A stretch of 64,000 bases of DNA from Halarcobacter sp. (GCF_963676935.1 NZ_OY781470.1:1336680-1400679), one strand, 5' to 3'. Positions 45,273 through 57,537 are shown, numbered from the stretch's first letter. Notes: generated by a model not told the origin, from the letters alone. Numbers and translations are program-made.

Positions 45273-46463
45273 TTATCCTTTATTCATACCCAAAGTCCAG
45301 ATATCATAATTTAAATCCATTACAACAGCTGGTTTATGGCCTGAGTTTAATATTTTTTGATAGAAGAATGATACAATATCTTCTATCTCCTCTTTTTTTA
45401 AGACTTTAGTTATTCCACCCGTTAAAACAATGGAATTTAAAGATAAAAGTTTTAAATTTATATATGCTTTTCTATATGTTGATACCTTACATAATACTAA
45501 GAATATCGCAAGTTGCATTAGTATTCTTGTCGCTTTTTCACTGTTTTCATTAAAAATATTTTCCGTAACTTTTAAATGAGCTAAAAGTTCATATACAAAC
45601 TCATTGTTTTTTGCAGCAAAGATTAAAGACTCTTTTGATTTATATACTCCAAGTTTTTTAAATACTAATCTATCATATTCATTTTCGGTTACCATATTTT
45701 CATCAACTAAATCTTTAGAATAGTGAATATCTGTTGTAGCTCCACCAATATCAATCAAAATAAATGGGTTAGCAACAGCAAATTTAGTACCAACCAAAGG
45801 GAGAGTTTTATTTACAATATATGGTGTAGAGTATATTTGGTTTGAAGTGATTTCATATAAATGTTTAATATCATCTTTACCCATAATATCAGCTTGGTAA
45901 AGGTTTGTTAAATACTCTTTTAAATACTCCTCTTCAACATGAAGTCTATCAGTTATAATATTTGGTAAAACAACTAAGTTCTCTATGTTTTGTTGCAGAT
46001 AACTGCTATCTTGTTTACTTCCAACATAAACTATATTTGAGTAATTAATTTTTTCTAAATAAGAGAAAAGTTTTTCATCAAAAATATTTGATACAGAATC
46101 AATACCCCCTACAAGAATAACAACATCAATTAAATCACTTGGAACAGATGTTTTTTCAATATCTTTGTATAAAACTGTATCAATAATATTGATTCCAGAA
46201 TTAAAAGCAATATTTGTAGCAAATTTAAGTGAAAAAGAGTTAGTAATACCTATGATTAAAGTACTTAATCCACCATTTGCAGATGAACATATAAATACAT
46301 CATCTTTATGATAATTATGAATAGTTTCACCACATTTATAAGTTAAGTCATCAAATATATCTTTATTAAAGTCTCTAAAATGTTGTTCAACTTTTTGAGG
46401 AGTACAAACTTTAAAATATGTACTTCCTACATCTATTAATAGTTTTTCATTTATTTCACTCAT
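45273..46463 (-). CDS. MutL-like reactivase of the B12 mutase
   Basis: This 396-residue ASKHA-fold ATPase of the MutL (glutamate mutase-associated) family has the phosphate-1 motif LLIDVGSTYFKV at about 8-19, the second glycine loop ILIDIGGATTDIHY and NSIVLTGG near the C-terminus. It probably exchanges damaged cobalamin in the mutase or chaperones its assembly. Its start overlaps the E-subunit stop by 4 bp. It is a little short for MutL (about 450 is usual), yet key motifs are intact. Confidence 0.83.
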   Translation of the reverse strand: MSEINEKLLIDVGSTYFKVCTPQKVEQHFRDFNKDIFDDLTYKCGETIHNYHKDDVFICSSANGGLSTLIIGITNSFSLKFATNIAFNSGINIIDTVLYKDIEKTSVPSDLIDVVILVGGIDSVSNIFDEKLFSYLEKINYSNIVYVGSKQDSSYLQQNIENLVVLPNIITDRLHVEEEYLKEYLTNLYQADIMGKDDIKHLYEITSNQIYSTPYIVNKTLPLVGTKFAVANPFILIDIGGATTDIHYSKDLVDENMVTENEYDRLVFKKLGVYKSKESLIFAAKNNEFVYELLAHLKVTENIFNENSEKATRILMQLAIFLVLCKVSTYRKAYINLKLLSLNSIVLTGGITKVLKKEEIEDIVSFFYQKILNSGHKPAVVMDLNYDIWTLGMNKG

Positions 46464-47824
46464 TGCATAATCCCTATATCATGAATAATATCATTAACAA
46501 TTGATGTTGTATCTTTTGTTAAATCACATTTAGATTTTTCATATTCAAAACATTTATCAGGAATTGGAACTTTTCCTCTATCTATGATTCTAATATTTTT
46601 ATTTCTATCTCTAATAGTTATCATATTATTATGATTAATAATATGAGGTGAAAAAGGTACATCTATTATTCCATTTTTAATAGAGTTAAATACTTTTCTC
46701 CATAAGGTATCAGCATTATCATTGAATACTGCTTCCATTATTGCCATAACTTCAGCTGTTAAGTTTTCCTCTTCCTCTTCATCTGTAATTTTAGGTAAAC
46801 CATTTAAAATTCTTAGTAAGTACTGTGTATTTGCAACAGTTTCTGCATTTGCTTCTTTTGTAGGTATTCCTGAAGCCTCTTGTTTTGTTTTTGTAATAAT
46901 TTTATCTGCCCCAACCATAGAAGCAATAGCTGTACTCATACTAATTAACTGTGTTGCATAGTTTTGATCCTCAGGGAAAGCTCCCATCCATTGATGATAC
47001 ACTAAGTGTATTTGAGCATCTGCGCAATCAATCTCTTGGGCATAGTATTTAGCTAGCTTTCTAATAACATTTCCCATAACTATATCTTGGTTTACTGAAC
47101 CACTTTGTGAAAATGATACAGAGAAAGATTTTACTCCCTCTTCAAGAGATAATAACATCTCTAAAAGCTGAATTACTATTGTAATGCAAGGTGGAACTAA
47201 TGTTGCTGTTAAAGGACCAAAAGATTCTCTATTTATTGGTTCATTTAGTTTTGAATAGTTTGCACATACTCTTTCTACATATTTCCAATATAAAAATGCC
47301 TTGTCTAATGGAAAGTTTTTAGAGTAGGGCAAAAGATAAGTGATTGGACCACCCTCTACCTCAAAAATTCCTGAAGCAATTGCTGTTTCAATCAATAATC
47401 TTGCATCAGGTGTACCATGTCTTAAAGAGATTGGTTTATTAAAATGAGTCATCATTTTTCTTGTTGTTCTATACCCATGGTTAATTAGTGGATAACCATT
47501 TAACATATCAACTTCACTCTCTTCACTGAGTCTAAGCATCTTTTCAGATGTCGCATAATCATTAAGTCTTGTATTTGAATCAATTGTACATGGTAAAACA
47601 TCTACATTAGCTTTATCAAAAAACTCATAAAGAGCAAACATCTTATTGTATGTAGGAAAACCACCCCTTGGTTGTACAAGCATTTTGTTTTTGGTTTTAA
47701 AGTTGTGTGATATAAAAAGATCTTTTGAAGCATTTTTAACAAAATCTTCTACTTCTGCAAAGTCAAAATTATCAACATATTCATTACTTAATATGATATT
47801 TCTTTCTTCTTGTAGTAAACTCAT
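46460..47824 (-). CDS. glmE: Glutamate mutase epsilon subunit-like protein
   Basis: This 454-residue TIM-barrel subunit matches GlmE/MutE, which with the B12-binding S subunit interconverts glutamate and 3-methylaspartate. Recognisable segments are MLVQPRGGFP, TIDSNTRLND, MLNGYPLINHGYR and LRHGTPDARLL, including the arginines that hold the substrate carboxylates. EGGPITYLLPY and NRESFGPLTATLVPP follow. The conserved QCGN segment reads QSGSVNQD here, and the protein is about 30 residues shorter than classical GlmE. Activity on glutamate itself is therefore not certain. It overlaps the S subunit by 4 bp. Confidence 0.85.
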   Translation of the reverse strand: MSLLQEERNIILSNEYVDNFDFAEVEDFVKNASKDLFISHNFKTKNKMLVQPRGGFPTYNKMFALYEFFDKANVDVLPCTIDSNTRLNDYATSEKMLRLSEESEVDMLNGYPLINHGYRTTRKMMTHFNKPISLRHGTPDARLLIETAIASGIFEVEGGPITYLLPYSKNFPLDKAFLYWKYVERVCANYSKLNEPINRESFGPLTATLVPPCITIVIQLLEMLLSLEEGVKSFSVSFSQSGSVNQDIVMGNVIRKLAKYYAQEIDCADAQIHLVYHQWMGAFPEDQNYATQLISMSTAIASMVGADKIITKTKQEASGIPTKEANAETVANTQYLLRILNGLPKITDEEEEENLTAEVMAIMEAVFNDNADTLWRKVFNSIKNGIIDVPFSPHIINHNNMITIRDRNKNIRIIDRGKVPIPDKCFEYEKSKCDLTKDTTSIVNDIIHDIGIMQ

Positions 47825-48234
47825 TTTTTATTCTCTTCCAGAAATTTTTCTAATTGATCTAGTCCAGTATTTAAATCGACTTGATGGAATACTAAATCAA
47901 AACCATAATTTTTAAATCTAGGCACAATATCATCAGCATTCCCTGTACCAACAACAAGGTTCCCACCTATCATAAAAACAACATTATCTAGAAGAGAGCC
48001 ATACTTAGCTTTAAGAACTTTTACTTCTCTACACCAACCCTCAGCCTCACCATTTAATGATGAGATTAATAATATATCAGCATTTGTTTCAATCACTGCA
48101 TCAACAAACTCCTCAAGATATGTATTAACTCCTAAGTTAAATACCTCAAAGCCTCTAGCTTGTAGTGATAGTTCAATTAGTCTATTTGCAACGACGTGTA
48201 TATCGTTACCTACTACTCCTGTTACTACTTTCAT
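47821..48234 (-). CDS. glmS: Glutamate mutase S subunit-like B12-binding protein
   Basis: This 137-residue cobalamin-binding Rossmann domain has the sigma-subunit fingerprint: VVGNDIHVVANR (11-16), SSLNGEAEGWC and MIGGNLVVGTG. The histidine (H13) is the lower axial cobalt ligand. In the usual DxHxxG motif the glycine is alanine here (DIHVVA). It is the first gene of the S-E-L-ligase operon, 74 bp downstream of a histidine kinase gene. An AGGT Shine-Dalgarno precedes the ATG. The symbol here means mutase subunit S, not glucosamine synthase. Confidence 0.85.
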   Translation of the reverse strand: MKVVTGVVGNDIHVVANRLIELSLQARGFEVFNLGVNTYLEEFVDAVIETNADILLISSLNGEAEGWCREVKVLKAKYGSLLDNVVFMIGGNLVVGTGNADDIVPRFKNYGFDLVFHQVDLNTGLDQLEKFLEENKK

Positions 48235-51395: not shown

Positions 51396-53984
51396 TTAAT
51401 TTGCTTTATATTCAATAATTACGGGTTCTGAGTAATTTGGAACTTCATCATAAGTAAACAGTGCATAATACTTATCAATATCTTTTGCACCAAAATCATC
51501 AAAAGTATAATTATCCATTCCTGCATAAAGTTTTTGACCATCATGGGTAGAGTAGGGCTTTCTAAATGCATTTTTAATAACTTTTACACCTTTTAAATCA
51601 GGGGTTTTAGGATTATCCCAAGTAAGTTTTAATTTTCCATTTTCTTTTGTAAGTTTTGCATTAGTTACTTTTTCAATAGGATATCTTCTTTTTGGGATAT
51701 ATTCAATTATCAATTTAGGAGATAAGTTTTGATTTTTTATTTCCCATGATACTTTTTTATCTTTAATCAATTTTTGTGAGGAAGTTGGTTTTAAAACAAA
51801 TGCAATATCTGATTTGTCTTTTAGTTTTTCATTTAAATTAATTTCAGAATAACTATCAAAAGGAAAATATTGTGTTTGGTTGTTTTTTAATTCTGCTGCA
51901 CTAACATCATATCCTATTGTTTGAATTATCTCTCTATTTGTAATACCATTGTAATCTTTATCAATATTTTCATCAACGAACTCTAAATGAAACCTAATAT
52001 CATCTTTTATATAAATATTTTTTGAGTTTAATTCAAAGTACGCTTTAGTAATCATAGTATAATCAAAACTTGGAAGAGAAGAAAGATTAAACTCAAATGT
52101 TGAATAAATCTTTTTCCCTTCATTATCAAAACCTGCACTAACTTCATCTTCTACTACATCATCTTTTGATACTGTATAAACAGCTTTTGGATAAAGTTCA
52201 ATAATATTTGGTTTTACTGTATATGTTATTTCTAATCTGGGTCTAAAAGGTAAACCATAACCAAATTTACCATAACCAATATCCCACTGCATCATCTGTC
52301 TAGTTCTACCAATAATTAACTCTTTTGGTCCTTCTACTCTAAAAACAACTTTCCCATATCTTTCAAATACATCTTGAAGGGCTTTACATTCAATACCTGA
52401 AAATTCCCATGTTCGCCAAATACCTTGTGTTAATTGGTGGGATTGAGTAGGTCTACCTACATATTTAACAATTTCCATATTATCTACATCATCAAAATTT
52501 GTAATATTACCCATTGTATCTTGATTTACAATACCCACATTCCATTCACCATATTTTTCTATTGTTGTTGAAACTCTATTTATAGGATATAAATTAAATG
52601 ATGCATTTTTTATGATTGTGTTCTCTGCTAGTGATTGCAAACTAACTGTAACAATAGCATATGATACACCTTTATTTTCATCTACTCCAACAAATAATGA
52701 GTTGATTCCAAAATGTTTTGCATTATCATTTAAATTTTCTGCTACATATCCTGTTTCTTTTGCAGTTGCATAATAAGTTCTACTAAACTCATCATATTCT
52801 GGATCTGTTCTTAAACTAATTTGTGGATAAAATGGCGATTTTTCAAATGTTTTTTTATTTACAACCCTTATGTTATAAAAATAATCTTTATTTGTTTCTA
52901 GATTTATATCTGTAAACTCTAAAGCTTGTGTTCTAGCTATCAAGTTTGAAGTTTTACAAAAATATTTATTTCTTTTTGCCCTATATATTTCAAAAAATAT
53001 ATCTTCGTGGGTTTGATAATCCCATTTTAAATTAACATGATTAGAACCTATTTCTGTAATTTCAAAAGAGTTAACTCTTTTTAATGAGTTCTTTTTAGAA
53101 TAATTTCGTGTTTCTTTTAAAGCAAGCAATAAAGCTGGTATATGTTCTCTAATATTTTCATCCATATCATTCATATAATCAGATATATTTCTAGTTCCAA
53201 CCTCTACAACCGTAGAGATAATACCTTTTGAGTGATAAAACTCTCTACCGCTGCCAGATATAAGTTTTATTGGTGGTTTTCCTTGATGAATACCATATTC
53301 TCTACCAGAAATTTTTCTAATCTCTTCAGCCATATTTGCACATAAAATATTCATATCTGTAGTATCAACAGTATCTTCATGTCTAAAATCATGTGCTGGG
53401 AAAAACACATTTCCTTGTGAGTGATAATCTAATGCTATAGTAATATTTTCATGAGTTTCTACAAAATCTCTCAATGCTTTTGTTTCTGGTTCACTAAAGG
53501 GTTCTGGACCCCCATAAACATTTGAAGTAGTAGATGTTGATTTCACATATCCTATTGGAAAGTTTCTATTTAAATCTACTCCATATGAACCATCTGCATT
53601 AACTCTTCTATTTTTTCTCCAAAAAGAAAAATGTGTTCTTGAATATTCATACCCATCTGGATTTACACATGGAACCATATAAATAGTTGATTTTTTTAAA
53701 TATTTTTGTAATGTTGGGTCATGCTGAATATTTTCTAAAATATATTTTGTAAACTCTATTGCTAATTCATGTCCTATCCATTCTCTAGCATGAATAGTCC
53801 CAGTATAAAAGAGTGCAGGTTTTTCATCTGCTGTGTTTATATCTCCTGAAATAGTAATAAGATTTATCTCTCTTTTTTCCCATGTTTCTCCAATCGATTC
53901 TATTTTGAAATTATTAGGGAATTTTTTTTGATACTCTTTAAAAATATCTGTTGATTCTTCATATGAGCGATATAGCTGCTTCAA
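51396..53984 (-). CDS. Large M14 carboxypeptidase with FN3 and DNRLRE-like domains
   Basis: This 862-residue protein has an N-terminal M14 zinc carboxypeptidase domain (about 1-300) with ligands H65 and E68 in IHAREWIGHE, substrate arginine in WRKNRR, DLNRNF, DYHSQG and catalytic glutamate in VEVGT. Next comes a fibronectin III-like domain (about 310-400), then two beta-rich DNRLRE-like regions (about 400-740) and another FN3-like end. No signal peptide is found, which is odd for this architecture. The start is TTG at 53984 with GGAGA 7 nt upstream. It lies 3 bp after the ATP-grasp/HhH gene. Confidence 0.83.
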   Translation of the reverse strand: MKQLYRSYEESTDIFKEYQKKFPNNFKIESIGETWEKREINLITISGDINTADEKPALFYTGTIHAREWIGHELAIEFTKYILENIQHDPTLQKYLKKSTIYMVPCVNPDGYEYSRTHFSFWRKNRRVNADGSYGVDLNRNFPIGYVKSTSTTSNVYGGPEPFSEPETKALRDFVETHENITIALDYHSQGNVFFPAHDFRHEDTVDTTDMNILCANMAEEIRKISGREYGIHQGKPPIKLISGSGREFYHSKGIISTVVEVGTRNISDYMNDMDENIREHIPALLLALKETRNYSKKNSLKRVNSFEITEIGSNHVNLKWDYQTHEDIFFEIYRAKRNKYFCKTSNLIARTQALEFTDINLETNKDYFYNIRVVNKKTFEKSPFYPQISLRTDPEYDEFSRTYYATAKETGYVAENLNDNAKHFGINSLFVGVDENKGVSYAIVTVSLQSLAENTIIKNASFNLYPINRVSTTIEKYGEWNVGIVNQDTMGNITNFDDVDNMEIVKYVGRPTQSHQLTQGIWRTWEFSGIECKALQDVFERYGKVVFRVEGPKELIIGRTRQMMQWDIGYGKFGYGLPFRPRLEITYTVKPNIIELYPKAVYTVSKDDVVEDEVSAGFDNEGKKIYSTFEFNLSSLPSFDYTMITKAYFELNSKNIYIKDDIRFHLEFVDENIDKDYNGITNREIIQTIGYDVSAAELKNNQTQYFPFDSYSEINLNEKLKDKSDIAFVLKPTSSQKLIKDKKVSWEIKNQNLSPKLIIEYIPKRRYPIEKVTNAKLTKENGKLKLTWDNPKTPDLKGVKVIKNAFRKPYSTHDGQKLYAGMDNYTFDDFGAKDIDKYYALFTYDEVPNYSEPVIIEYKAN

Positions 53985-53987
53985 ATA

Positions 53988-55490
53988 TTATTCTCCTACT
54001 TTAAGTCTTGATTTTAATTGAACAAGTTTATTTTTACCAATACCATCTATATCTTTTAGTTCATCAATAGAATTAAAACCTTTTGTTTTTTCTCTATATT
54101 CTAAAATAATTTTTGCAAGTTTAGCACCGATACCTTTTATTTTCTTTAATACAGACTCATCAGCATCATTTATATCTACTCTCATGTCATCAAGGTTGTC
54201 ATTCCAAGTTTTTAATATTTGTTCATCTATTGATTCTAATTCTAATAAATCACTTGAGTCTGTAATAATGTTCTCTTTTGTATATTCATGTATCTCGATG
54301 GCAAGATTCTCTTCCATCCCATGAAGAGTCATTATATCAGTTAAAGATGCACTATTAAAGTTTATTTTTTGGATTATAAGTTCATTCTTTTTTGGTTCCT
54401 TATTTAAATCTTTTTTAATAGGCAATTTATCAGGTGCAATTGATTCTGGTACATCATTTGGAGTACTCAACTTAGCTTTTTCCATATCAAAACTATCTTT
54501 TGGTTCATTTAAATACCATGTTCCATCACAAGATGGTTTATATTTACTAAAGCCAATATGCCTCATTGTTCTTAACAATGATGAATCAATTTTCCCTAGC
54601 TCTTCCCAAGAAAATAGAGGAATATGTGGCATAGAATATTTTCCATTAGAAAAATCCCACATCAAATATTGACAAATCCAATCTCGAATATAAGGAAAAG
54701 CTGCAAATGCAGTAGCACACTCTAAAATATATGCCTTATCTGTTTTAGCATCAATGGCAATATCACAAGCCCAATACTCTGCTTTAGCAGCCTTACTTGC
54801 TTCAACAGCTAATTCAAGTGCATTCATTGGAATATTATCATATGACATTGAACCACCCTGAGAAGTATTTGTAATCCATTCACCATCGCCTGAAAATCTC
54901 CAAAACGCACACACAGGTTTATGTCCTACTAACATAACTCTGATATCACCTGAATATTTTAAATCAATAGCATCTTGAGTATAAATTGGATTATATTTCT
55001 CTTTTTCTAGTAGTTTTTTAGCTTCTTTATAATTATCAGCTTTATGTACAAAATATCCACCATAATTTGATGGACCATATGATCTTTTTATTATTTGAGG
55101 ATATTTTGCTTTGTTTTTTAGATAATTAAAACCTTTTTCTTTATCATAAAATATTTTTGTTTTTGGAATTGATAAAGCATATTTTTTACAAAATAATGTA
55201 ACATTCTCTTTAGATTTATTTGAAAATTGTGTTTCTAAAGATGGTACAAATCTAACATTGGGAAGCTCTTTTGATATCTCAACAAATGTATCATATGCTG
55301 TAGCAGGAATATTACCGATTAAGATATCAATCTTTTTCTTTTTAACCTCTTTAACAAACCTATCTTTATCATTTTTCCAATGATAAGTAACAGATTCAAT
55401 TTTGTCAGGCCAACCTTTAAAATTAGAATGGTCAAAAAATCTTAAAACATAATCAAGATATAAAAAACCTAATTTTGGCAAATTCTTCAT
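53988..55490 (-). CDS. ATP-grasp ligase fused to helix-hairpin-helix domains
   Basis: This protein of 500 residues is counted from ATG 55490 (AAGGA is 8 nt upstream; ATG 55496 is only 2 nt away). The N-terminal ATP-grasp fold (about 100-285) has QIIKRSYGPSNYGG as nucleotide loop, SGDIRVMLV and a YILECATAF strand. A linker (about 290-370) leads to two ComEA-type helix-hairpin-helix units (about 372-434 and 434-500: KIKGIGAKLAKII, DIDGIGKNKLVQL). The usual E-x-N metal motif reads ECA. The substrate is unknown. An amide-forming ligase that also binds nucleic acid or protein is possible. Confidence 0.75.
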   Translation of the reverse strand: MKNLPKLGFLYLDYVLRFFDHSNFKGWPDKIESVTYHWKNDKDRFVKEVKKKKIDILIGNIPATAYDTFVEISKELPNVRFVPSLETQFSNKSKENVTLFCKKYALSIPKTKIFYDKEKGFNYLKNKAKYPQIIKRSYGPSNYGGYFVHKADNYKEAKKLLEKEKYNPIYTQDAIDLKYSGDIRVMLVGHKPVCAFWRFSGDGEWITNTSQGGSMSYDNIPMNALELAVEASKAAKAEYWACDIAIDAKTDKAYILECATAFAAFPYIRDWICQYLMWDFSNGKYSMPHIPLFSWEELGKIDSSLLRTMRHIGFSKYKPSCDGTWYLNEPKDSFDMEKAKLSTPNDVPESIAPDKLPIKKDLNKEPKKNELIIQKINFNSASLTDIMTLHGMEENLAIEIHEYTKENIITDSSDLLELESIDEQILKTWNDNLDDMRVDINDADESVLKKIKGIGAKLAKIILEYREKTKGFNSIDELKDIDGIGKNKLVQLKSRLKVGE

Positions 55491-55502
55491 ATACATTTTC
55501 CT

Positions 55503-56408
55503 TTATTTTTTATTTATTTTTTTATCTATTAAATCAACAATTAATTCAATTTTTTTATCATTATAGTCAATACCAATTTTTTCTTGTTCTGGTGTTATAA
55601 ATGCAGGGATACCATTTACTTCAAGTACTACATATTCTTCTTTTTTTCTGTCATAAATTATATCAACTCCACCAATGTCAAGGCCAGTAACTTTAACAGC
55701 TTTGAGTGCCAATTTGATTACACTTTCAGGAATCTCTCTTTTAAAAACACTACCTCCACTAGTAACATTTGTTCTCCAATCACTACCACCTGCTTTTCTT
55801 CCATAACCACCAACAAATTTTCCATCAACTACATCTATTCTAAAATCTGTGTTATCATAATCAATAAATTTTTCAACATAAAAATATCGTAAATCCATTT
55901 GATTTAAAAATGGCAGTAAGACATCAAGTGTTTCTTCATTTTCAATTTTAGTTAATCCAACTCCACCCCAACCATCAGTTGGTTTATATACCATCTTATC
56001 CCATTTTTTTATAATTGCTTTTAATTGATGAGTGTCATCTCTATGGCATAATTTGTAATCTGCTGTTTGTATTTTATTTCTTCTTAGCAAGAAAGAAGTA
56101 TGAAATTTATCTTCAGTAAGTTCAAATGATTCATAAGTATTTATCATTGGAATAATTTTATTTAATGCTTTATACAAATACATTTGATATTGTGTTTGTT
56201 CCCCTGCGTTATAAGAGAAGAAAAGATCTAATTTATCTAATTTAATATCATTCCAAATTATATGACCATTTTTGGCAATCGCATCTCTTAAATTGATATT
56301 TGGAATAACATCAATCCCTTTTTTATCTAATAATGTAATTATTTTCTCTTGTATCTTATCTCCACCACCATTTTGGTATAACCACATACCAATCTTTTTT
56401 CTTTCCAT
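55503..56408 (-). CDS. RimK-like ATP-grasp ligase
   Basis: This 301-residue ATP-grasp enzyme of the RimK/LysX type has YKPTDGWGGVGL (phosphate-grasp loop, about 140-151), FRIDVVDGKFVGGYGRKAGG (about 193-212), the WRTNVTSGG segment and YVVLEVNGIPAF with the metal-binding glutamate and asparagine. Such enzymes form amide bonds between a carboxylate and an amino group using ATP. AGGGGA precedes the ATG. It sits between an M20 peptidase gene and a second ATP-grasp gene, with 25 and 12 bp gaps. Confidence 0.82.
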   Translation of the reverse strand: MERKKIGMWLYQNGGGDKIQEKIITLLDKKGIDVIPNINLRDAIAKNGHIIWNDIKLDKLDLFFSYNAGEQTQYQMYLYKALNKIIPMINTYESFELTEDKFHTSFLLRRNKIQTADYKLCHRDDTHQLKAIIKKWDKMVYKPTDGWGGVGLTKIENEETLDVLLPFLNQMDLRYFYVEKFIDYDNTDFRIDVVDGKFVGGYGRKAGGSDWRTNVTSGGSVFKREIPESVIKLALKAVKVTGLDIGGVDIIYDRKKEEYVVLEVNGIPAFITPEQEKIGIDYNDKKIELIVDLIDKKINKK

Positions 56409-56433
56409 TTTATCCCCTATGTAAATTTAGTTT

Positions 56434-57537
56434 TTAATTTTTTTGATAGTAGTCTAATATTTTTGTCATCATTGAAATTCGTTGCTCAAAAGAACTTTTT
56501 AGTGCTCTTTCATTTATAGTATGGTCTCCATCCCCAAAAGGTCCAAAACCATCTAAAGTTGTGGTACCGCAACTCGAAACGATGTTTGCATCACTTACAC
56601 CACCTCTTCTTTCTGTTAATATTTTTTGTTTAGTTAATTTTTCAAAAAAACTTATTAGTTCTAATTGTTTCTCATTTTCTTCCATTACTCCACGCTGTAT
56701 AATACCATCAGCATGAGATTTTGTACCTTCTACATAAGAAATAGATGTAATTTTTTCTACTTCATTTATGATTCTTGTTTCTTCCTCTTTTTTATCAAAC
56801 CTAAACTCCATCATAAGTTCACAGTGTGGAGATACAGTATTGATACCAATACCACCTTCTATTTTTCCAACATTAATGATAGTTCCCTCTTCAAAATTGA
56901 TTAGTTCATGATATTTTTGTAGTTTTATAGCACCTTCTAAATTAGCATTTATGCCTTTTTTATACGAAGTTCCAGCATGACTTGCTTTTCCTTCAATTTT
57001 TATAATATATCTTCCTACCCCTTTTCTTGCTGTAACTAATTCTAAATTAGCCCCTGCAGCTTCAAATACAAAACAATAATCATAATCCTTTGCGATTGAA
57101 GAGGTAACTTCTTTTGAATCATCACTTCCTGTTTCTTCATCTGATACTAATAAGAAATCTATATTAATAATCTCTTTGTTTTTTTCATAGATATTTCTTA
57201 AAGCTTGTAAAGCTACAATGTTGCCACCTTTCATATCACAAACACCAGGGCCATAAACCCATTCGTCATCCTCTTTAAAGCTTTCAAAATATCCTTGAGG
57301 AAAAACAGTATCATTGTGTCCTAAAAGAAGTATTTTTTTCCCTTCTTTTTTTGTAGTTTTAAATAATAAGTGATCACCGATTAGTTCTCTTTTAAAAGTA
57401 GTCATTTGAAAACCTAAAGGTGTTAGCCATGAGCTCATAATATTTCCAACTTCATCAACACCATTTTTATTTTGGGTATAAGAGTTTATATTGATAATTT
57501 TTTCTAAGTCTTTTAAGTAGTTCATAAAATTTTCCAT
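56434..57537 (-). CDS. M20-family metallopeptidase, carboxypeptidase G2-like
   Basis: This 367-residue di-zinc peptidase has LLLGHNDTVFP (first metal histidine and aspartate, about 70-80), GPGVCDMKGG with the bridging aspartate, SDEETGS with the catalytic glutamate, a dimerisation domain (about 175-285) and FGPFGDGDHT as the last metal histidine. Relatives cleave C-terminal glutamate from folates or aminoacyl conjugates. There is no signal peptide, hence it is cytoplasmic. It is the first gene of the ATP-grasp/M14 operon. No clear Shine-Dalgarno is seen for ATG 57537 or for the in-frame ATG 57525. Confidence 0.85.
   Translation of the reverse strand: MENFMNYLKDLEKIININSYTQNKNGVDEVGNIMSSWLTPLGFQMTTFKRELIGDHLLFKTTKKEGKKILLLGHNDTVFPQGYFESFKEDDEWVYGPGVCDMKGGNIVALQALRNIYEKNKEIINIDFLLVSDEETGSDDSKEVTSSIAKDYDYCFVFEAAGANLELVTARKGVGRYIIKIEGKASHAGTSYKKGINANLEGAIKLQKYHELINFEEGTIINVGKIEGGIGINTVSPHCELMMEFRFDKKEEETRIINEVEKITSISYVEGTKSHADGIIQRGVMEENEKQLELISFFEKLTKQKILTERRGGVSDANIVSSCGTTTLDGFGPFGDGDHTINERALKSSFEQRISMMTKILDYYQKN

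Follow-up and report, generated by a model that had tools for sequence, protein, structure and literature searches.

A four-gene set in Campylobacterota joins two RimK-family ATP-grasp proteins to two metallocarboxypeptidases and may build and trim a short acidic chain

What might a cell both make and take apart with two RimK-family ATP-grasp proteins and two metallocarboxypeptidases encoded in a single row? The question is raised by a locus of Halarcobacter sp. that lies in the window analysed here, a 64,000-nucleotide stretch of a closed 3.1 Mb genome whose nearest named loci belong to marine, Arcobacter-type Campylobacterota. A first-pass annotation had described four consecutive genes, and this description is borne out: all lie where it placed them, are intact, and follow one another on the minus strand in the order M20 - AG1 - AG2 - M14 (Table 1). 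Pfam and NCBIfam models confirm the domains, namely M20 with M20_dimer, two RimK-type ATP-grasp domains, an HHH_3 domain at the C terminus of AG2, and Peptidase_M14.

Table 1. Genes of the locus, with positions counted from the first letter of the window
Feature	Position	Strand	Domain evidence
M20 metallopeptidase, 367 aa, carboxypeptidase G2-like	56434..57537	(-)	Pfam M20 + M20_dimer
AG1, RimK-family ATP-grasp ligase, 301 aa	55503..56408	(-)	RimK Pfam E 1e-22
AG2, RimK-family ATP-grasp protein, 502 aa, C-terminal helix-hairpin-helix	53988..55496	(-)	Pfam/NCBIfam
M14 carboxypeptidase, 862 aa	51396..53984	(-)	Pfam Peptidase_M14 E 4e-59

The genes are tightly packed. The earlier values of 25 bp between M20 and AG1 and 3 bp between AG2 and M14 stand, but the middle gap, given as 12 bp, depends on the start assigned to AG2: it is 6 bp when counted from the first ATG and 12 bp from the second, at 55490, which may be the true start. 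AG2 and M14 share a reading frame and are spaced by TAA TAT before the TTG start of M14 (window 53980-53995), with an AGGAG upstream of this TTG, inside the end of AG2. The M14 frame opens one codon ahead of the TTG (an 863-aa open frame), so that a signal peptide is impossible for this protein, in keeping with the previous statement that export signals are lacking. All four proteins are interpreted as cytosolic.

The association of the genes extends well beyond this genome. In a sample of 397 Campylobacterota genomes, the same set being searched with each of three queries, full-length AG2 is present in 52, M14 in 54 and AG1 in 53; all three occur together in 51 and are all absent from 342, giving a Fisher p of ~1e-60 for each gene pair when kinship between genomes is ignored. 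Six-frame reading of 41 AG2 loci places all four genes within one span of 6.0-6.5 kb in 34, with M20 inverted in some lineages, and 80 further named loci, which partly overlap the first sample, have the same arrangement. Linkage and co-occurrence together exclude a chance association of the genes, and the four-gene set is a real functional unit. The first-pass annotation had allowed that the genes might prove unlinked in relatives; they are instead linked across genera, families and a few other phyla.

Incomplete sets are few. Genome G381 (97% complete) has M20, AG1 and M14 without AG2, G218 has only AG2 and M14, and in G037 AG2 is broken. Genome G105 has AG1 alone. In G256 only M14 is left, in the place it takes in related genomes, between argG and a carbonic anhydrase gene; M20, AG1 and AG2 are gone. 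The M14 gene of G256 (L180, 9079-11676) marks a clean partial deletion of the other three genes.

Five further genomes (G319, G333, G009, G343 and G129) carry an M20-AG1-M14 operon and have AG2 placed elsewhere in the genome, adjoining the gene for elongation factor P in all four such loci read. In the four of these five genomes that were compared, M20, AG1 and M14 are nearest to Sulfurimonas-type operons and AG2 is nearest to a different clade (L150, L149, L145). The simplest reading of these affinities is that the native AG2 was lost and a foreign copy took over, and such a replacement would argue that the set needs AG2; a paralogue retained by chance could also account for the relocated gene. 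AG2 of a foreign lineage stands beside efp in the Sulfurimonas-type loci L047, L051, L071, L072 and L152, and L182, the efp region of G037, contains the broken AG2 of that genome.

Outside Campylobacterota, the cassette is found in Photobacterium (L032), where it lies on one replicon, in Thiomicrorhabdus (L170), and in Desulfuromonadales bins (L171, L172). Among 369 genomes of the Thiomicrorhabdus class it occurs in one, the Thiomicrorhabdus seed genome itself, and in the Desulfuromusa phylum a search at high similarity returned the seed genome only. More remote homologues of AG2 occur singly in Desulfobacterota-like genomes (L183-L186) and offered no further clue. Extra tandem copies of AG1 adjoin the cassette in L089, L093 and L111, the first of which also has a short AG2-like ORF.

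No fifth gene is conserved beside the set in the loci read across Campylobacterota and in the other named loci. Argininosuccinate synthase and a gamma carbonic anhydrase, considered as possible parts of the module, adjoin the operon in one family only. Glutamate mutase genes (GlmL-like, GlmE and GlmS), unusual in this phylum sample, lie 3 kb from the operon at window 45273-48234 (-). Glutamate mutase is present in 26 of 52 carriers of the set and in 14 of 76 chosen non-carriers (p 2e-4), an association much of which follows the Arcobacteraceae-like family f1, the family of the window genome; as a supplier of methylaspartate the enzyme is thus associated with the module but, being found in only those 26 carriers, is not a required part of it.

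The chemistry of the module is best approached through residues that its enzymes retain. For AG1, the best curated model is MptN (E 3e-42), at 144.5 bits against a cut-off of 350. The protein keeps D249, E263, N265 and R190, and with them the full Asp / Glu-x-Asn metal set of the ATP-grasp fold. R190 and N265, invariant in 101 orthologues, align with R189 and N262 of RimK, the two residues that touch the terminal glutamate when a poly-glutamate chain is bound (PMC10092738). This alignment suggests that AG1 uses glutamate or another acidic residue; its scores fall far below every curated glutamate-ligase cut-off, however, and its amino acid could therefore differ.

AG2 is the more unusual of the two ATP-grasp proteins. 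Its fold matches LysX, ArgX and RimK, 155 of its 502 positions are invariant or nearly so among 41 orthologues, and it retains R186, a TNTSQGG motif, D245 and E259. The metal-binding Glu-x-Asn, however, reads Glu-Cys-Ala, with Ala261 in place of the Asn, in 108 of 108 orthologues, leaving the canonical ATP-grasp Asp / Glu-x-Asn metal site incomplete throughout these 108 proteins. The nearly invariant stretch around Ala261 (residues 244-263; window 54707-54767, (-)) is LECATAFAAFPYIRDW. Another ligand may complete the site, a single metal may suffice, or the protein may have another role. Domain models, alignments and fold matches thus agree with the earlier assignment of both proteins to the RimK/LysX kind, but with Ala at the usual metal-binding Asn AG2 is perhaps no ordinary ligase. 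A helix-hairpin-helix region follows at about residues 376-499; its Pfam family varies from lineage to lineage, and it was undetected in 3 of 10 sequences scanned singly (L032, L045, L070).

The catalytic domain of M14 occupies residues 1-300 and contains the HxxE...H zinc site, the Asn-Arg carboxylate site and the catalytic Glu of CPA, CPB and CPO (funnelins). The corresponding residues (zinc ligands H65, E68 and H188, N139 and R140, and E261) are kept in 99-100 of 100 orthologues, and structural similarity to CPA, CPB and CPO reaches a Z of about 30. At the S1' position equivalent to CPA 255, M14 has R247, which is Arg in 98 and Lys in 2 of 100 orthologues; the Ile of 2pcu that aligns with it has chain index 252 and is numbered 255 by the offset used in the structure comparison. 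Arg255 confers acidic specificity on carboxypeptidase O (PMC9925722), and M14 is likewise predicted to be specific for acidic C-terminal residues. At the position of CPA 248, which is Tyr in CPA, the M14 proteins studied here have K240 or other residues in place of Tyr, and pocket geometry or kinetics may therefore differ.

Beyond the catalytic domain, residues 301-862 are predicted to form fn3-like and beta-sandwich domains. This part, overlooked in the first-pass annotation, comprises about 560 residues, two thirds of the protein, and has many invariant positions. An fn3 match was found in 6 of 13 M14 orthologues, together with a weak DNRLRE match below the cut-off; Foldseek with the whole M14 model matched the catalytic domain only and says little about how residues 301-862 fold.

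Carboxypeptidase G2 (CPG2) is a glutamate-releasing enzyme, a folate hydrolase. It is also the closest solved structure to M20 (1cg2, E 4e-31). All five CPG2 metal ligands and the catalytic Glu are present in M20, and the metal and catalytic residues H74, D101, E134, E135, E159 and H339 are kept in 96-97 of 97 orthologues. The match leaves the substrate of M20 unfixed, and release of glutamate by M20 is a prediction by analogy with CPG2.

Apart from one position in AG2, then, the catalytic residues of the set are conserved. An apparent glutamate-type ligase, a carboxypeptidase whose pocket would suit acidic ends and an enzyme related to a hydrolase that releases glutamate, each of them cytosolic, point to our favoured reading, which is held tentatively and at somewhat less than an even chance: together the four genes would make up a module for building and trimming a short acidic chain, most likely of glutamate, in the cytoplasm. 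AG1 would act as an ATP-dependent glutamate-type ligase of the RimK family, and AG2 would make either the initial bond or one of another kind, or recruit the acceptor. M14 would take acidic residues off the free C terminus of the chain, and M20 would free the acceptor of its last glutamate or split a released dipeptide. The order of these steps, the substrate of M20 and the role of AG2 are drawn by analogy only. Because no conserved neighbour could serve as a dedicated substrate, the chain is more likely to be a free peptide or to sit on an acceptor that is universal. The controlled synthesis and turnover proposed in the first-pass annotation is partly supported: it gains from the residue evidence an acidic direction, with a putative product, a putative acceptor and a substrate that ligases and peptidases may have in common. 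Genomes G256, which keeps M14 without the other three genes, and G105, with AG1 alone, count against the acidic-chain reading.

A more specific version, possible though doubtful, is a reversible cycle of acidic tailing. In this cycle AG2 would use its helix-hairpin-helix to recruit an acceptor, onto which the two ATP-grasp proteins would write a chain of Glu/Asp; the CPO-like M14, with its conserved 560-residue recognition part, and the CPG2-like M20 would erase this chain, making the module in principle a bacterial counterpart of tubulin glutamylation and deglutamylation.

The main rival is that the ligases make a soluble peptide, from a dipeptide to a short oligomer, which would serve as a compatible solute or nitrogen store and be recycled by the two peptidases in the manner of N-acetylglutaminylglutamine amide (NAGGN) or cyanophycin. 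Enzymes for making and breaking in one operon, with neither a conserved fifth gene nor a dedicated acceptor, fit this proposal, as do a patchy spread and jumps to Photobacterium and Thiomicrorhabdus, which would suit an accessory trait for stress or storage. The named isolates in which the set occurs belong to marine or saline genera or species (Poseidonibacter, Malaciobacter halophilus, Sulfurospirillum arcachonense), a qualitative pointer to habitat. However, models for NAGGN and cyanophycin synthetases are not matched at cut-off, and two features, the AG2 helix-hairpin-helix and the 560 conserved residues of M14 outside its catalytic domain, would be odd in a small-solute pathway; a soluble peptide could be the product, but we would not expect it. 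Rather unlikely, in our estimate, is the reversible addition of acidic residues to one particular protein, at its C terminus or on a side chain, as by RimK on S6 or in tubulin (de)glutamylation. The RimK-type ligase fold and the putative recruiting domain of AG2 are consistent with such a modification, the large conserved C-terminal part of M14 could recognise a protein, and in RimK/RimB, too, a ligase is paired with a protease of its own (PMC12239564). No conserved neighbour gene is fit to be the substrate, however, and S6 of the window genome, which ends in EAAKKAN, lacks an acidic C terminus and has the same end in relatives without the module.

Two further explanations fare worse. Addition of alpha-linked glutamates to folate or a similar cofactor, with M20 and M14 as trimmers of gamma- and alpha-glutamyl residues, would suit both the best curated match of AG1, the tetrahydromethanopterin alpha-glutamate ligase MptN, and the proximity of M20 to a folate hydrolase; AG1 nevertheless scores under the MptN cut-off, and a universal cofactor would leave the absence of the set from ~87% of the surveyed phylum genomes unexplained, so that this explanation is improbable. 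The least probable is that M14 and M20 serve to degrade peptides in general and that the ligases stand beside them by chance. Both peptidase families do include general scavenging enzymes, and M14 alone is kept in G256, but the near-perfect co-occurrence of ligases and peptidases, the conserved gene order, and the apparent replacement of a lost AG2 by a foreign copy speak against it.

Comparison with described systems helps to place the putative acidic-chain module. RimK/RimB (RimABK), which adds the glutamate tail of S6, also joins a RimK-family ligase to a protease in one operon, and AG1 has the equivalents of RimK R189 and N262, whereas AG2 has R186 but Ala261. The present set differs in having two ligases rather than one and zinc carboxypeptidases in place of a retropepsin. 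The S6-glutamate ligase model PRK10446 (cut-off 331 bits) is not reached by AG1 (53.7 bits) or AG2 (20.8 bits). Ribosomal protein S6 is also unsupported as an acceptor: it ends in EAAKKAN both in G000, G396 and G310 and in the module-less G377, G391 and G241, and acidic ends occur in some other carriers and also in some non-carriers. The LysX/ArgX - LysW - LysK system shares a RimK-family ligase with an N-x-x-x-G-G motif and an M20 hydrolase, but the present set also has an M14 enzyme and a further ligase, and the LysX score is 95 of 275.6. The LysW carrier was rejected as the acceptor, as a search with its model TIGR01206 found none in 8 carrier genomes or records; the same search was positive in 4 control genomes.

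Tubulin TTLL and CCP enzymes provide a likeness in principle, with an ATP-grasp ligase adding glutamates and a cytosolic, acidic-specific M14 enzyme removing them. CCP have acidic specificity (PMC6214572), yet the M14 protein described here resembles the CPA/CPB/CPO (funnelin) branch, and the comparison with CCP is one of principle only. Human carboxypeptidase O is similar in its M14 fold (Z 29.8 over 281 residues) and its basic residue at 255; the present enzyme differs in being bacterial, in lacking a signal peptide, and in having a 560-residue C-terminal extension and an operon shared with ligases. In NAGGN and cyanophycin systems, a small peptide or polymer is synthesized by ATP-grasp enzymes with a dedicated hydrolase nearby. 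The four-gene set shares this pairing but is without an acetyltransferase or Mur-ligase domain, and its scores (18.2 of 569 bits for NAGGN, 41.6 of 850 bits for cyanophycin synthetase) lie below the cut-offs. A graspetide precursor gene would not fit inside the operon, whose gaps measure 25, 6-12 and 3 bp, and among ORFs of at least 60 aa none is conserved upstream. None of the four proteins matches a PADLOC model of anti-phage defence, and a search for phage or mobile origin gave no match in phage records and no confirmed match in viral contigs.

The component families are known, and operons joining a ligase to a protease have already been described in RimK/RimB and Rlo (PMC12239564). The literature search found no description of the four-gene set, in agreement with the earlier remark that no named system has it; subscription papers and the 2009 amidoligase review were beyond its reach. 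A set that is nearly all-or-none across its phylum, that is shared with distant bacteria, and in which a lost part appears to have been replaced, indicates a defined job that is as yet unannotated. It also offers a cytosolic M14 carboxypeptidase that is predicted to prefer acidic ends and that has an evident genetic partner. Should the acidic-chain reading hold, these bacteria would possess a new peptide that serves as solute or store, or else a new way of reversibly modifying a protein or cofactor.
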